Origin: Xenorhabdus mauleonii
GTDB lineage: Bacteria > Pseudomonadota > Gammaproteobacteria > Enterobacterales > Enterobacteriaceae
Reading direction: 5' to 3'
Length of the DNA stretch: 64,000 bases
Assembly: GCF_900113945.1 (NCBI RefSeq)
Contig: NZ_FORG01000004.1
Coordinates: forward strand, 62,001 to 126,000
How positions within the stretch are numbered: the stretch's first letter is position 1; each line of letters starts with the position of its first letter. Below are positions 1,262-8,283 of the stretch, piece by piece. Under the pieces are notes generated by a model. It was not told the origin of the DNA. It saw only the letters and a list, made by a program, of their open reading frames with translations, and did no database searches. The translations under genes and the position numbers were made by a program.

Positions 1262-2167
1262 TTAAATGCCCAAAAGATGATTATTTTCTATGTTTTTAAT
1301 GTATATTCCATAATCATCAATTGTAATAACAATCTTGTTATCATTTAGCCAATGCGCAAAGATTTTATTAATGTCCTGAAGATATTTCTGATGGGTAATG
1401 CCCGATACAGACAGAGATATCGAAATTTCTTTTGAGTTATCTGTGTTCATAGCTTCTTTCTTCGTTAATAGTTCAACTTTGCTCAGGGCCAGCCTAATAT
1501 TTTCTTCACGTTCTGATTCAGCCGCAGGTTGCTTTTGTAGTTCTGTAATTAATAATTCTCGCAAGGTATGGCTAATTGTTTCCGGATTGACGGATGTGGC
1601 CTGTTCCAAGGTGGAAGAAATGGTGCTTACCGGCGTTGCCGTATTCTGTTCATCAGTAAGGCTAATCGGTATTGTCACTGAGTAATTTAAAGAAAGTCGT
1701 GGGCGATTCCCCAGGGATTGCCAAAAACTGCCCAAACTGTTTAAACTTTCTTTCGGGGGAACAACCTGAGTATAAGCGCCAGGAATACCTGCCAGTTGGC
1801 GGTTATTAATCAGGGCATTCAAGACTTGCGACATGACTTGTATTGCCTGATTATCCGGTTGGCTATCCGGGCTATTGGGATCGGTTGCGGGTTTGCTTGA
1901 TTCCCAATAGGTAATCAGATAATTACATTTAATATTGACCCAACCCGGCAATAATCTGCCTGAAGTGGCATTGAACACTCTGGATTCTGTTGAACGAAGC
2001 TGTAGATCTTCATGGATATCATAAAGAAAGACACTCACCATTGCGTCAGATTGCACGGTATCTAACTCAGGCAGGTCAAAACGGATTGCGATTTTTTTAT
2101 CCAGATATTTTTCCAAAATTTCTTTCATTGCTTTATTGGCATCAATAACAGTTTGCATTTTTAACAT
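1262..2167 (-). CDS. pvc16: eCIS tail-terminator/cap protein (Pvc16/Afp16-like, DUF4255)
   Basis: This 301-aa protein closes the eCIS operon. The N-terminal half has the pattern of the DUF4255 family: a conserved start (VIDANKAMKEIL), a stretch on valence-like output (VSVFLYDIHED), then a segment with YLITYW and QVLNALI. In Afp and PVC this protein caps the distal end of tube and sheath and ends polymerisation after the length is set. The C-terminal third is variable. The start at 2167 is preceded by GAGG at a suitable distance. It is 75 bases downstream of the ATPase gene, as expected for the last structural gene. Family assignment comes from sequence pattern plus fixed gene order. Confidence 0.9.
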   Translation of the reverse strand: MLKMQTVIDANKAMKEILEKYLDKKIAIRFDLPELDTVQSDAMVSVFLYDIHEDLQLRSTESRVFNATSGRLLPGWVNIKCNYLITYWESSKPATDPNSPDSQPDNQAIQVMSQVLNALINNRQLAGIPGAYTQVVPPKESLNSLGSFWQSLGNRPRLSLNYSVTIPISLTDEQNTATPVSTISSTLEQATSVNPETISHTLRELLITELQKQPAAESEREENIRLALSKVELLTKKEAMNTDNSKEISISLSVSGITHQKYLQDINKIFAHWLNDNKIVITIDDYGIYIKNIENNHLLGI

Positions 2168-2242: not shown

Positions 2243-4339
2243 TTATGGGGTTTTAAATATCAATCTGCCCACTTTATCTAATTCTCGTGTTAATGCTGTT
2301 TCAATATGATTATTATTCACTTCTTTATAGTTGTTCTCTGCGGCAAAAAGCGAAGACAATAAAGCAATATTCCGAATATTTGCTCCTGTTATACCTGCCC
2401 GTTGGGCTAATTTATCAAAATCCACATCTTGGGAAATCGGTATATTTTCAGGCCAGATTGCTTGCCACATTTTTTTGCGGAGAATTTCATCTGGGTAAGT
2501 AAAACGAGTAATAAAGGTAAAACGGCGATTAAAGGCGTTATCCAAATGGCTGCGATTATTCGTGGATAAAATAACTAAACCAGGATAATTTTCCAGCCGT
2601 TGCAACAAGTAAGAGACTTCAATATTTGCGTGCCTGTCTTGAGCATCTTTGGTTTCACTGCGTTTACCAAACAGTGCATCTGCTTCATCAAAGAATAAAA
2701 CACCGGCATCCTGTTCTGCCAAATCGAATATACGGGATAAGTTTTTCTCGGTTTCACCGATATATTTATTCACGACGGTGGCTAAATCCACTTTGATTAA
2801 ATCAACGCCAATACAATTGGCAATCACTTCTGCCGCCATGGTTTTTCCTGTTCCAGAATCACCATAAAACAGGGCGCTGATACCCGTCCCATAACCAATT
2901 TTGTCTTTAAAACCTTCTGCAAGAACGTGTTCCCGATATTTAATTGCTGTGAGTATTTCTTGTATTTGTTGAGCAATATCATCGGATACCAATAAATCTT
3001 TTAATGAACGTTTAGGCGTGATCCGCTGTGCCAATTGACCAAAATTTTGTTGGGCGCGTAAATTGAGCGCTTGATGGATATCGCATTGCTGCAAAATATC
3101 CAAAGGATTTCGTTGTTGTTGGTAAAGTTGGGCTTCCTGCAAAATCAATGGCAGGGTTTCAGGATTAAAGGTGTAACGCTGGCTTAAGGACATTGCGTCA
3201 ATATTATTTGCGCAGTGATTGGGTAATTGCGCCGTCAATAGATTCGTTTTTTCCTTCAGGGTCAGAATGGGCATTTCTACCAATAATGTTGATAATTTTC
3301 TCAACCAGACCAGTGGGGAAGAGGGTTCAATTAAGCATACCACTCTTAATTCAGGTTGCTGCAATAATGCCGACAGCGGTTCCAGTAGCTGTTTATTCTG
3401 TTCAACGAATAAGCAAAAATTTCGCAGCAATAAGCAGGCTCCGCGCATGCGAATTTCCCGCAAAATGCGCTTCATTCGGGAAAGCAGGGCGCTATTATCA
3501 TTGTCAGCCAATTTGGCGATATCTACTGCCAATGTTTGTCGCTCTTCTGAGGCCATGATATTGGCAACGGCATAAGCTCTGGCACTGCCGGCATTGCCCT
3601 TTAATAAGATAATGGAGCGAATATCATCGTGGTCAGATAACAACGCATTATTGAGTAATTGCTTTAATTGGGGTGGATAATAACCATTCTCTATAGGTGG
3701 TAACCACTCAGAATAATATTCTAAGTCAGGCGTAATAGGGTGATGCCCCAGTAAAAAATGATACACACTGTTATCAGTGATAAAAGGTGTTTGGATCCAG
3801 GATAATACTTTTTGATGGCTCTCAATGGATAATAGCCGGCAGTTAATCAGAGGAGAACAATGCAGGAAACTGGCTTGTTGTGCCTGCTTCTCCGACATTG
3901 AGTGACAAAATAGTTCCAGTGCCAGCGTAAAAGAAGGAAGCCGGGCTTGTTGTTCTCCTTGGATGAGCGCAAACAGTTGATAGTATCGGCTATCAAAATG
4001 GGGAAGTAGGCCTAACAGCAACACATCTCTTTCAAAATCAGTCAGTTCAAAACGATCAATTAAATCAGTCAGCCGGGAAGCTACAGAAGTGACGGTTTGC
4101 GGTATTGCCAGATAATCATCATTGAACCAGTGAGGTTTACCCTTGGGGTTATCTAATCTGGCGATAATATCTTCTTCATTTAGCAGGAATTCATCAAGAC
4201 GTTCATCTTGTTGGATGGAGATGCAATGGAGATGATATTGAAGAACGAGATCGATACGTTCCAGTTGGCTCAATAAAAACGCTAAATTAGCGTCATTATT
4301 CTGCTGAAATAAATTAGGGAAAATAGATGCTGTATTCAT
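2243..4339 (-). CDS. pvc15: eCIS AAA+ ATPase (Pvc15/Afp15-like)
   Basis: A 698-aa AAA+ ATPase. Walker A is GDSGTGKT at residues 493-500 and Walker B is FFDEAD at 549-554, followed by a sensor-1-like STNN and an arginine-rich NRRF segment. The first 450 residues form the helical N-terminal part typical of CIS ATPases, with a degenerate second nucleotide-binding region. In PVC/Afp systems this enzyme is needed for assembly or payload loading but is not a stoichiometric part of the finished particle. It sits between the tape-measure gene and the cap gene, as in characterised loci. The 123-base gap upstream, with a dispersed palindromic repeat, is one of the larger gaps in the operon. All key ATPase motifs are intact. 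Confidence 0.93.
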   Translation of the reverse strand: MNTASIFPNLFQQNNDANLAFLLSQLERIDLVLQYHLHCISIQQDERLDEFLLNEEDIIARLDNPKGKPHWFNDDYLAIPQTVTSVASRLTDLIDRFELTDFERDVLLLGLLPHFDSRYYQLFALIQGEQQARLPSFTLALELFCHSMSEKQAQQASFLHCSPLINCRLLSIESHQKVLSWIQTPFITDNSVYHFLLGHHPITPDLEYYSEWLPPIENGYYPPQLKQLLNNALLSDHDDIRSIILLKGNAGSARAYAVANIMASEERQTLAVDIAKLADNDNSALLSRMKRILREIRMRGACLLLRNFCLFVEQNKQLLEPLSALLQQPELRVVCLIEPSSPLVWLRKLSTLLVEMPILTLKEKTNLLTAQLPNHCANNIDAMSLSQRYTFNPETLPLILQEAQLYQQQRNPLDILQQCDIHQALNLRAQQNFGQLAQRITPKRSLKDLLVSDDIAQQIQEILTAIKYREHVLAEGFKDKIGYGTGISALFYGDSGTGKTMAAEVIANCIGVDLIKVDLATVVNKYIGETEKNLSRIFDLAEQDAGVLFFDEADALFGKRSETKDAQDRHANIEVSYLLQRLENYPGLVILSTNNRSHLDNAFNRRFTFITRFTYPDEILRKKMWQAIWPENIPISQDVDFDKLAQRAGITGANIRNIALLSSLFAAENNYKEVNNNHIETALTRELDKVGRLIFKTP

Positions 4340-4462: not shown

Positions 4463-6958
4463 CTATAACCATGTTGTCATGACGGGCTGTTCCAACCAGC
4501 TAAAGCGGGCTATATTTATTGGCCACGGCCAATTGTTTATCAGTGCATCATAAACTTCGGATTTAATATGGATATTGGTTAATCCATTTAATTCACTCAA
4601 TTCCCCGGAACGTTGTAAAAATAAATGCCGCACATCATTTATCCCCATTTTTTTCCAGTTCGGAAGTTGTACGAGCGTTTTTTCCAGCCATTGGTTGATA
4701 GCAATTTGTTGTTCTGGCTCAGGTGCGCGCCATAGCGCATCATCATGTATGGATAGCCCGCACAGTATTTTATTGAGGGTCAATCGCCATGCCGGTATTT
4801 CCTCTTCAGCCCAAATCATCCAATCCAATAAACAGACCGCCACTCTTTGCGCTTCAAGGCTGATAAATTGTTTTTCCTTCAATAAATCAAAGGTGCGGAA
4901 AAATGTTGGCAATAACGGCCATAAAAGCATACAGCCGGCATTACTGATGGGTAAAACAGATTGTACTGATGGCGTTTGAATCCCATTATTAGGTTGTTTG
5001 AATGACATGTGCGCTGACAATGCGGATTTCGGCAATTCTTTGTGTGATTTCTTGTGCTGTAGAATTGTTGGGTTTTGTTTTAATTCCCCCTTTATCAAAC
5101 CATAACGCTGCTGTAGGGGAGCCGGTTGCTGATTGATTTTTATGGAGTGGGGTGTAACTGGCGGTATTGTATCTATTGGTATATGGATTTTATGAACAGC
5201 CTGTTTTAATTGATGGTTTTCATCCTGATGGATACTGACTGTTGATGTTTTCTTAATTTTAGTTTGTGATAACTTTTTTGTTTGCGTATGGGATTCACTA
5301 TTATCCGGTTGTAATGAATTAACATAATTTTCTGCAATACCATTCTCTGGTATTTGTTTGTGTTGAATTTTTGGAGCTGTTTTTATTTTCGCATGCGTTT
5401 CATTACTAGTTGGTTTTGATAAATTAATGTTATTCTCAATAATATTATTCTCTGATGCCCACTTGTTTTGCGTGCTCATGAGGGTTTTCGTTTGTGTATG
5501 GTTTTGATCAATATCCGGTTTTATTGCATGACTGCTATTTCCTGAAATGCCGTTCTCCGGCATCCGCCTGTTTTGCGTTCTCAACGTAGTTTCTGTTTGC
5601 GCATGGATGCCGCTGTTAGCCGGTTTTAATGGATGGCGGCTATTTTCTACAATATCGTTCTCCGGTATTCGTTTATTTTGCGTTCTCAGTGTGGTTTCTG
5701 TTCGTGTATGAATGTCATTATTATCCGGTTTTAATGAATGACCGTTATTTTCTTTAATGTCGTGCTCCGGCATTCGTTTATTTTCTGTTTTCAGTGTGGT
5801 TTCTGTTGGTGTATGAATAGCATTATTCTCCGTTTTTAATGAATGATTGGTATTTTTCATCATTCCTTTTTTCGATGCCGGTTTGGTTCCAGTTTGTAAT
5901 GTGAATTTTTTTTGTGTGTTATTTGCATAATTTGCCTGATGTTTCAGATAATATTTTGCAGATAATTTCAATTTTTCTGGAGTCACACCTTCATCTTTGA
6001 TTGCTGGCTTATCAATAAGTTGGGGGCTTTTTATTGCCTCGGAAAATAAATTGAAAAGTATGTGGAGAACATCGGCTTGGCAGATTTTAATTAATCGACT
6101 TAGCTTCTCGGGTTGTAAACAATGGTTAGCTAGCATGGGAAGCCACTGCTGTGGTTGAAGGTTGATTTCTTCCAACAACCAATAACTAAATTCAGAGTTG
6201 CTTACCTGTTGCCATAAAATAGGTGAGTCCCAGTTGCCATGATTCAAATAGTTATCGACACTATTTAATGTGAATTTTTCTGGATCTAACGTATTGGATA
6301 CATTGAGATCACGCTTAATTATCGATGAAATATCATTTTTATCCCCGTTATCCTTCAGATTACCTCTTTGTTGGTTGCAATCGTTCACTCCAGTAGCACG
6401 GCTATCTATTCCATCTGTGCTATTTATTCTCAGGAAATGATGCGTGGTTTTTGTTTCCCATTGAAATTTGGCCTTTGGCGGTACAAATTCGTCTCTGGTG
6501 AAGTTGTCACTCCCTTGCTGCCTCGATACATCCCGAAGTTCATAAGGTATAGTTTTAGCTTTTCTTGAGGTGAATAAGTTACGGTCAGCATTCTGTTTCA
6601 TGCTTTCTGTGAATTCATGGGTCTTATTTCTTAATTCTCTTTCCAATCGCCAAATAAATTGTTGTTCAAAATTTTCTAACGCTATCTCTCCAAGATCTAA
6701 AACTATTTTTGTTAATGATAGATCATTGTTCTGTCTTGCCCATTTTTCCACTTCTTCATTAATTAAATGACGCAGTTTACGTTTAAATAAAGCAGAGCAT
6801 TTTTCAATTATCTTATTGCTGTGATGTTTCTCTGTTTCAAGTGATATTGATAATTTGTCAATGACACCCTTGAGATTTTCTTTGTGGTTTCTTTCCAAGA
6901 CAGTTGTCCCTTTACATGCTATGAATATGTTCAATGGGCGATAAATAGCGACGCCCAT
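4463..6958 (-). CDS. pvc14: eCIS tape-measure protein (Pvc14/Afp14-like) with internal 35-aa tandem repeats
   Basis: The N-terminal 130 residues match the pattern of contractile-injection-system tape-measure proteins: a helical region ending in a basic stretch and the signature LTKIVLDLGEIALENFEQQF. The C-terminal 170 residues form a second ordered region (LLWPLLPTFF, a later LNKILCG, then WPWPINIARFSWL). Between them, residues 372-581 are six tandem degenerate repeats of exactly 35 aa, rich in Asn, Thr, His, Lys and Pro. Afp14 sets particle length, so repeat number here may matter for length. Start choice is uncertain: ATG 6958 has no ribosome-binding site, whereas TTG 6898, in frame, has AGGGA about 8 bases upstream and gives an N-terminus more like the family (811 aa). 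Confidence 0.88.
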   Translation of the reverse strand: MGVAIYRPLNIFIACKGTTVLERNHKENLKGVIDKLSISLETEKHHSNKIIEKCSALFKRKLRHLINEEVEKWARQNNDLSLTKIVLDLGEIALENFEQQFIWRLERELRNKTHEFTESMKQNADRNLFTSRKAKTIPYELRDVSRQQGSDNFTRDEFVPPKAKFQWETKTTHHFLRINSTDGIDSRATGVNDCNQQRGNLKDNGDKNDISSIIKRDLNVSNTLDPEKFTLNSVDNYLNHGNWDSPILWQQVSNSEFSYWLLEEINLQPQQWLPMLANHCLQPEKLSRLIKICQADVLHILFNLFSEAIKSPQLIDKPAIKDEGVTPEKLKLSAKYYLKHQANYANNTQKKFTLQTGTKPASKKGMMKNTNHSLKTENNAIHTPTETTLKTENKRMPEHDIKENNGHSLKPDNNDIHTRTETTLRTQNKRIPENDIVENSRHPLKPANSGIHAQTETTLRTQNRRMPENGISGNSSHAIKPDIDQNHTQTKTLMSTQNKWASENNIIENNINLSKPTSNETHAKIKTAPKIQHKQIPENGIAENYVNSLQPDNSESHTQTKKLSQTKIKKTSTVSIHQDENHQLKQAVHKIHIPIDTIPPVTPHSIKINQQPAPLQQRYGLIKGELKQNPTILQHKKSHKELPKSALSAHMSFKQPNNGIQTPSVQSVLPISNAGCMLLWPLLPTFFRTFDLLKEKQFISLEAQRVAVCLLDWMIWAEEEIPAWRLTLNKILCGLSIHDDALWRAPEPEQQIAINQWLEKTLVQLPNWKKMGINDVRHLFLQRSGELSELNGLTNIHIKSEVYDALINNWPWPINIARFSWLEQPVMTTWL
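5216..5845 (-). repeat. Six tandem 105-bp repeats inside pvc14
   Basis: The first codon of each unit (His or Asn, then S/L/I-L/S-K) falls at 5845, 5740, 5635, 5530, 5425 and 5320, i.e. an exact 105-base period five times over. The unit encodes 35 residues of the type H-SLKP-N-IHT-TETTLRTQNKR-PEN-I-EN. The first three copies are closest to each other; copies 4 to 6 are increasingly diverged, yet no copy has gained or lost a codon. Confidence 0.93.
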
Positions 6959-6968
6959 TGTGAAAGAA

Positions 6969-8234
6969 TTAAGACTTCATAATAAATGCCAATATGTAAT
7001 AGGGTGGGACTATATCGACTTGATGTGTATGGGCCGGCAGCGTCGTTGATGCAGTATGATCATGGCCTTCTGAACTGCCTGTTGAACTGGTGTACGGCCA
7101 CCAGTGATTATAATTAACCGATCTGATCCAGGGTTCTTCTGTAGTATTATATATTATGCGATAGTGGTTAAGATCCTTGTTATTAATTTCATCGTTCAGG
7201 TCATTATTTAATACAGCACTGTATCGTAATCCTGTGTTTTCAGTGAATCCACCACCTTGTATGTGTTTATGCTTTGGTATTTGTTTTATATTTAATTGGG
7301 TTTCATTGACTCTAACATCCATTTTTTTAGTTGAGTTCTCGTTGCTATTGACGACAAAAGATTTCGCATTACTTTGCCCTGTAGCTGTTTTTCCATTAGT
7401 GCCATCGATATTTGCAATAGTTCCCCCTAATATAAATCTATCTATTAGATTAGGCGTGCCTTTAGTGCCATCGCATAATAACCAGCCTTGTGGTATTGCC
7501 GAGCCTGAAAACATAACAATCATACCCTTGGGTAATACAGTATTAGGATCAATGGCAACTTGATCATTGTCTATCTTAATACCGTGGCCCGTTTTAATAC
7601 GAATGCCTGATGAACTATTACCGATACCGCCATTGGCATGAAGATGAACTTCTAGACCATTACCAACGGTAATTCCTCTTCCTGCCTTAACTTTTATGCC
7701 GGCACTATCTACTGTAATGGTTGAATCCGCGGGGGTCGCTTCCAATGCACCCTCTGAGTTAAATGCTATTCCGTCGCCCGGTTTTATGGCAATGCCATTG
7801 GCATCAACAACTAAGCCTTTGTTCGCCGCCAATTTTACCGCAACACTTTGAGAATAAACGGTAATGCCATGCCCCTGACCCACCGATATTCCATCACTTT
7901 TATTCGTCAGGCCACGGCCCAGACTGACCGATAAAATATCTTGTTCCAGTTTTAATGGAGAAGAATTATTGTGGTCAATGATACCCATTTTTAAATTCAG
8001 AGTGCCATCATCACCCAGCGTTAATCCTGTTCCCGGGCCATTTTGTTGTGGTGCCAGACCACAGGCTTTGCGCCCGACATCGGCAATATCAATTAATTGG
8101 CTGAAATCAATTTGTAAAGGAATACTTCCTTCTTTGAATTTATATTTCAGTTTATCCGTTTCAGGCCCAATACCTTTTTCATTAGATAATGCTTGTTGCG
8201 TTTGTATTCTTGCAGAATAAAGCGTCTCTTTCAT
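6969..8234 (-). CDS. pvc13: eCIS tail fibre / target-binding protein (Pvc13-like) with phage collar-type tip
   Basis: 421 aa from ATG 8234, chosen over the in-frame ATG at 8246 because GGAG lies six bases upstream. Residues about 90-235 are a fibrous shaft made of short glycine-turn repeats of the GxGI-V and NGIAIKPGDGI type, like adenovirus-fibre shafts. From about residue 240 there is a phage tail-collar domain: a GMIVMFSGSAIPQGWLLCDG-type start, then GTPNLIDRFILGG. The end is rich in HxH pairs (KHKH, HDH, HTH), typical of metal-bound phage-fibre tips. In PVCs this protein decides which cell is bound. The collar-type tip differs from the adenovirus knob-like end of the best-studied PVCs. 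Host target cannot be read from sequence. Confidence 0.88.
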   Translation of the reverse strand: MKETLYSARIQTQQALSNEKGIGPETDKLKYKFKEGSIPLQIDFSQLIDIADVGRKACGLAPQQNGPGTGLTLGDDGTLNLKMGIIDHNNSSPLKLEQDILSVSLGRGLTNKSDGISVGQGHGITVYSQSVAVKLAANKGLVVDANGIAIKPGDGIAFNSEGALEATPADSTITVDSAGIKVKAGRGITVGNGLEVHLHANGGIGNSSSGIRIKTGHGIKIDNDQVAIDPNTVLPKGMIVMFSGSAIPQGWLLCDGTKGTPNLIDRFILGGTIANIDGTNGKTATGQSNAKSFVVNSNENSTKKMDVRVNETQLNIKQIPKHKHIQGGGFTENTGLRYSAVLNNDLNDEINNKDLNHYRIIYNTTEEPWIRSVNYNHWWPYTSSTGSSEGHDHTASTTLPAHTHQVDIVPPYYILAFIMKS

Positions 8235-8283
8235 GGTTAACTCCATAAAATTTAGTAAATATAAAATATTGCGGTAGGTGTTT

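Follow-up and report, generated by a model that had tools for sequence, protein, structure and literature searches.

Recurrent tandem expansion of a linker in the tape-measure protein of PVC-type contractile injection systems of Xenorhabdus and a sister genus

The tape-measure protein (TMP) Pvc14 encoded in the window (the whole stretch of 64,000 nucleotides of a Xenorhabdus genome that we analysed) contains six head-to-tail units, each of exactly 105 bp, and the array is real: it lengthens the tape measure of an injection system in a way that recurs and that varies in nature. On balance, we favour its interpretation as a recurrent in-frame amplification of a native linker segment, in which the added units would lengthen the tape and hence the tube, and hold this to be slightly better than an even bet.

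The first 21.5 kb of the window carry, on the minus strand, the operon of a PVC-type contractile injection system, apparently intact as judged by its open frames; two of the eight proteins scanned from it gave no Pfam match. Its principal features are collected in Table 1. The operon includes pvc16, whose product we take to be the cap protein. A previous sequence-only reading had called pvc14 a tape-measure gene, and this is borne out by a match to PF19268 (CIS_TMP) of 184.5 bits, against a cut-off of 27.8, that runs from position 3 to 463 of the 463-position profile and thus covers both ends; the gene also lies between the tail fibre and AAA ATPase genes, the position expected of a CIS_TMP gene. 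Pvc14 measures 831 aa from the first ATG and 811 aa from a TTG at 6898. The true start is probably this TTG (6896-6898), preceded by AAAGGGA, since the X. szentirmaii orthologue (806 aa) opens at the same TTG and its open frame offers no usable start before that point. Counted from its start motif to the last residue, the conserved C-terminal domain spans 159-161 aa in 55 of the 65 TMPs of Xenorhabdus and its sister genus and 155-173 aa in 60 of them, one of the others having 86 aa and four lacking the motif. A further PVC-type TMP gene in the window's genome (L151, contig C71, 26000-31000) appears as two open frames of 378 and 289 aa and is perhaps a broken gene.

Table 1. Features of the pvc14 region (positions within the window; aa, residues of Pvc14)
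Feature	Position	Strand	Basis or remark
pvc14, tape-measure protein	4463..6958	-	Pfam PF19268 CIS_TMP, E 5.9e-54, residues 32-830
pvc13, tail fibre, upstream neighbour of pvc14	6969..8246	-	Pfam Av_adeno_fibre + Collar
pvc15, AAA ATPase, downstream neighbour of pvc14	2243..4339	-	PF00004 + PF22977
pvc16	1262..2167	-	PF14065 Pvc16_N
MITE-like dispersed element, 212 bp, in frame, aa 136-207	6340..6551	-	ends TATACC...GGGGATA
Flank before array, aa 334-368, with start of native linker motif	5855..5959	-	62% nt identity to matching X. szentirmaii flank
Array, six 35-aa units, aa 369-578	5225..5854	-	offset-35 identities
Array unit 1	5854-5750	-	
Array unit 2	5749-5645	-	
Array unit 3	5644-5540	-	
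Array unit 4	5539-5435	-	
Array unit 5	5434-5330	-	
Array unit 6	5329-5225	-	
Flank after array, aa 579-613	5120..5224	-	68% nt identity to matching X. szentirmaii flank
Conserved C-terminal domain of Pvc14, aa 669-831	4466..4954	-	start motif to end, 159-161 aa in 55 of 65 TMPs

The best self-match offsets within pvc14 are 105, 210 and 315 nt, and those within the protein 35, 70, 105 and 140 aa; at offset 35 the array holds 81 identities in 175 comparisons, with 20,000 shuffles reaching at most 29. Our analysis therefore confirms the six-unit, 105-bp array that had been placed at 5216-5845, here given in the protein register 5854-5225, the 9-base difference reflecting the arbitrary register of the array. 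The earlier description also holds in its details, as the spacing is perfect (35 aa in all five steps) and copies 4-6 are strongly diverged, pairs that involve them showing 50-70% nucleotide identity versus 70-85% among units 1-3. Tandem Repeats Finder (TRF) alone reports 3.2 copies (5512-5846). The residues N, Q, T, S and P make up 46% of the array, which includes 12 prolines in 210 residues. AlphaFold runs on the whole of Pvc14 and on the array alone, both from two-row alignments, returned pLDDT values of 30 and 44 and low-confidence strands only. The 105-bp unit was rejected as a dispersed repeat, being found at a single place in the genome.

A stretch equivalent to the unit (e.g. LQTQNKQTPxxNIxQNxSHLLKQ) occurs about once in eight of the ten other Xenorhabdus orthologues that could be aligned, and therefore the array is most simply read as an amplified native linker segment. 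The two remaining orthologues have the stretch twice (L012) or have lost most of it (L014), and the same count gives seven copies each for the window and X. szentirmaii, so that copy number varies between related loci, as the sequence-only reading had anticipated, from about 0 through 1 and 2 to 7 by eye in this alignment of 12 orthologues, which includes those two, and from 1 to 8 in the sister genus. The thirteenth Xenorhabdus orthologue (L017), which lies outside the alignment, has in its linker a 33-residue duplication of its own. With a unit profile at E < 0.01, the 13 Xenorhabdus TMPs gave six units in the window, seven in X. szentirmaii, one in six proteins and none in five; this profile misses units in some orthologues, and hence the weakest cases of the motif are visible by alignment alone. 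PF19268 matched in 14 of 30 Xenorhabdus genomes and the P0001 search in 16 genomes of the genus, two of which (G013 and G024) matched just the dispersed element, the collections searched for relatives holding one genome per species. Further relatives amounted to one locus among genome contigs, with none among viral contigs and none among solved structures at E up to 1.

Comparison with X. szentirmaii, which has six units between flanks orthologous to those of the window, gives some access to the history of the array. The two proteins align without gaps over aa 208-636, with 130 substitutions and 0 gaps in the array region, and their last units share 76% nucleotide identity. The four inner units of X. 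szentirmaii are 92-100% identical to one another, which supports duplication and with it the earlier proposal of repeated expansion. Synonymous distances among the window units lie between 0.64 and 1.5 in 13 of 15 pairs, one further pair being saturated and one (units 1 and 2) at 0.15; those among the inner X. szentirmaii units are 0-0.13, and that of the C-terminal domain between the two species is 0.55, below most window unit pairs. Units 1 and 2 of the window and the inner X. szentirmaii units would thus be younger than the level of the C-terminal domain split, on unit distances that are near saturation and a sample of one species pair. This is most simply explained by an array of roughly the present size in the ancestor, later partly homogenised inside each species. 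The six-unit count of X. szentirmaii could be an assembly error, because two of its units are indistinguishable (100% identity) and another two reach 92-98%; such an error is not plausible for the window, whose units are too diverged.

The array is accompanied by a second insertion. The MITE-like element in pvc14 occurs also in the X. szentirmaii gene but in none of the other 10 Xenorhabdus orthologues aligned; it has 24 matches in its own genome, the pvc14 copy included and most of them partial, and its alignment comprises 11 full-span matches, of which one is the pvc14 locus and four come from further Xenorhabdus genomes. With a length of about 200 bp, dispersal and terminal inverted repeats (the inverted ends were read by eye), it resembles a MITE, and Rfam at gathering score gave 0 matches in loci L032 and L063. 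Palindromic elements of Rickettsia are likewise inserted in frame into genes, where a small dispersed palindromic element adds a stretch to a protein; they differ in sequence and host from the element described here, which stands for one insertion in one gene. The short Xenorhabdus orthologues (11 of 13) measure 491-577 aa with a median of 532. The 811-aa Pvc14 of the window exceeds this median by 279 residues, close to the 72 of the element plus the 210 of six extra units, and these two additions account for nearly all the growth from 532 to 811 aa.

The TMP family was present in all 12 genomes of one sister genus from the same bacterial family as Xenorhabdus, taken to be Photorhabdus on account of several PVC-type TMPs per genome and strong LuxC matches in 12 of 12; the LuxC family also matches 9 of 14 control genomes and so lends support to the name without establishing it. 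We surveyed 73 TMP ORFs (47 from the sister genus, 18 from Xenorhabdus and 8 from others) among 170 ORFs of 152 loci, with a profile built from 16 of the TMPs themselves and with the exclusion of ORFs below 250 aa or open at the locus end, of G177 (one match with a stop, the others in short frames) and of a contig-edge fragment in G181; the survey thus covers family matches from selected groups, not a random sample. Internal repeats, called when the internal repeat score reached twice the maximum of 20 block shuffles or more, were found in 22 of the 73 TMPs, with offsets of 34 or 35 in ten, of 109 in six and of 15, 33, 48, 68, 114 and 169 in one each. The eight sister-genus TMPs with offset 34 carry their arrays in the linker preceding the C-terminal domain and contain, by unit profile, 4, 4, 4, 4, 4, 6, 7 and 8 copies; in the same clade a ninth TMP has 2 copies and L103 and L107 have 1 each, copy number thus ranging from 1 to 8 among C-terminal domains that are 75-91% identical. 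Three copies occur in L129, outside this clade.

Pvc14 of the Photorhabdus virulence cassettes (the genus name being inferred) therefore resembles that of the window in family, in the linker concerned and in having tandem arrays in several species, but differs in a unit of 34 aa and of other sequence. Homology between the units of the two genera is not supported, hhalign giving a probability of 0.7% and a score of 12.6 versus up to 14.4 for column shuffles (one Xenorhabdus row was misplaced by the aligner) and a cyclic profile test giving 662 of 5,000 shuffles as good. On the tree of C-terminal domains the arrays fall in two separate clades, with support of 0.99 for the Xenorhabdus pair and 0.78 for the sister group. 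Taken together, units without detectable homology and arrays in separate clades indicate that linker expansion is recurrent, a different segment having been amplified separately in the sister genus; by eye, its 34-aa unit seems to stem from the end of a conserved segment next to it. Other architectures were also observed in the survey. In the sister genus, L136, L140, L060 and others have a 109-residue repeated module whose end resembles the 34-residue unit by eye, and L137 has a near-identical 169-residue duplication in its N-terminal part, outside the linker. L101 (G179, sister genus) groups with the Xenorhabdus type on the C-terminal domain tree, which operon transfer may explain, and L148 (G071, another genus) has about five 15-residue Q/S/P-rich units directly before the C-terminal domain. 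From other families of the class, eight TMPs were recovered out of nine genomes with a match (none came from G315); they reach 1,516 aa and show no strong short array, three of them scoring slightly above their own shuffles. Lengths of 1,058-1,516 aa thus occur among eCIS TMPs that lack a strong short tandem array, so TMP length can also be gained by other routes.

Repeat-bearing TMPs are known in phages, and the Pvc14 array is an injection-system version of them. As described for phage TMPs (Belcaid 2011, PMC3271669; Mahony 2016 on TP901-1, PMC5099701), tandem units are gained and lost by duplication and are a proposed source of changes in tail length; those units have 11 or 18 residues marked by W or F, a 40-residue TMP repeat of phage p2 being mentioned as well, while those of the present proteins have 34-35 residues and serve a protein-injection particle. 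The aromatic 11/18-residue type is not found in the window, whose array has 2 aromatic residues in 210 and a period of 35. Among the open-access papers searched, none dealing with tandem arrays in the tape measures of eCIS came to light, subscription papers being outside the search. A further known system is Afp14 of the Serratia antifeeding prophage, of the same family as Pvc14, which is said, after Rybakova 2015, to regulate Afp length; it differs in its size, 554 aa in the S. entomophila record.

How the array could act on the particle is suggested by the way such tubes are built. The tail tube of lambda polymerises along the TMP and ceases to grow once this is engulfed (PMC8718954), and in TP901-1 the removal of 347 aa shortens the tail from 118 to 65 nm (PMC5099701), figures which give 1.53 Å per residue. 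The tubes of Afp and PVC have 21 and 22 rings, of 39.3 Å each (PMC8718954). With the Afp14-type CDS of S. entomophila (1665 nt, 554 aa), 21 rings correspond to 1.49 Å per residue if that protein built the 21-ring tube. Two S. entomophila plasmids differ at this gene, L176 (NZ_MT039148.1) having the TMP annotated in two pieces and L177 a single 554-aa gene. It can be proposed that a native 35-residue segment, from the flexible linker that joins the middle part of Pvc14 to its constant C-terminal domain, was amplified in tandem; the protein grows, its C-terminal domain keeping to about 160 aa. Because the polymerising tube would engulf the TMP until it is spent, each added unit would lengthen the tape and thus the tube. 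At the Afp-derived value of about 1.5 Å per residue, one unit would correspond to about 1.3 tube rings and six extra units to about 8, and 811 aa would predict some 31 rings versus the 21-22 of Afp and PVC. A ruler function of the Pvc14 array seems likely. Several points count against it in this simple form: no measured particle with an array-bearing TMP was found, one unit is no whole number of rings, the review in PMC8718954 has the Afp toxin replacing the TMP in the mature particle, and an array rich in N, Q, T, S and P and bearing prolines is unlike the long helix that 1.5 Å per residue implies, so the rise per residue could differ.

The same composition, together with the low-confidence AlphaFold models, would also suit a merely tolerated expansion, a disordered linker looping or packing in the lumen with little or no effect on tube length. 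We consider this possible but rather unlikely. The relaxed constraint on the units (dN/dS ~0.43-0.64), the 1 to 8 copies within one clade of similar C-terminal domains and the tolerated insertion of the dispersed element in another Pvc14 linker are what such a linker would lead one to expect; yet TP901-1 deletions, in the repeats and the neighbouring hydrophobic region, shorten the tail proportionally (PMC5099701), the units are still under some constraint, and two species have an equal count of six units despite unit turnover.

The length of the unit itself might also be selected, the array being a graduated ruler with one mark per 34-35 residues. The sequence-only reading had proposed selection on length because the unit size is so exactly kept, and as stated this is not supported: exact spacing argues only weakly for such selection, with P values from 0.04 to ~0.33 and a pooled result that depends on the rate assumed. 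Of the 47 steps between consecutive units, 43 keep the exact spacing, all 11 of those in Xenorhabdus and 32 of the 36 in the sister genus; the off-length steps measure 15, 28, 32 and 59. The window units have accumulated 84 substitutions on a spanning tree and 0 indels, where the rate of the adjacent linker, taken from ten other Xenorhabdus TMPs, predicts 3.1 (P = 0.04), and the arrays of the window and X. szentirmaii show 0 gaps versus 1.1 expected from the rest of the two proteins, at 2 gaps per 236 substitutions (P ~0.33). Pooling 11 arrays gives 2 off-length steps versus 5.7 expected at the Photorhabdus linker rate (P = 0.07) or 23.6 at the Xenorhabdus linker rate (P ~2e-8), pooled P values being too small because related arrays share history. 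Any selection would not be on length alone, as the sequence of the units is also constrained: their pooled dN/dS is 0.43 in the window, 0.64 in X. szentirmaii and 0.45 in L143, that of the C-terminal domain between the window and X. szentirmaii being 0.15. A graduated ruler thus appears doubtful. It would account for the exact steps of both genera, for unrelated units of nearly equal length in them and for the strong pooled test at the Xenorhabdus rate, but not for the two non-significant comparisons, the off-length steps, the offsets of 15, 33, 48 and 109 aa in other TMPs or a unit of about 1.3 rings. It is improbable that the units are retained for multivalent binding, be it of cargo, of a chaperone or of the Pvc15 ATPase, rather than as a ruler. 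In favour of such binding, their sequence is under purifying selection, four of the six window units have an [IM]PE core, and cargo shares the lumen and is loaded partly via disordered N-terminal leaders with Pvc15 (PMC11495950); against it, no sequence similarity is detectable between the units of the two genera, and about one copy suffices for eight of the ten other Xenorhabdus orthologues aligned.

Under the favoured reading of amplified units that lengthen the tube, it is tempting to speculate that needle length has an evolvable dial in a linker hot spot, where unrelated cassettes of similar size have been amplified repeatedly in at least two genera. Needles of about 18 to about 32 rings would then be predicted among near relatives, and different lengths even for two loci of a single cell (the window's genome encodes TMPs of 574 and 811 aa); we give this proposal somewhat less than an even chance. 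The setting of needle length in protein-injecting particles rests on few cases, and these loci provide a natural allelic series on an otherwise conserved protein, with about 0, 1, 2 and 7 units in one genus and 1-8 in another. With a helical tape each unit would add about 1.3 rings, with an extended one about 3 and with a looped one none, alternatives that electron microscopy of native particles can separate. Nature may thus offer a ready-made series of needle rulers.
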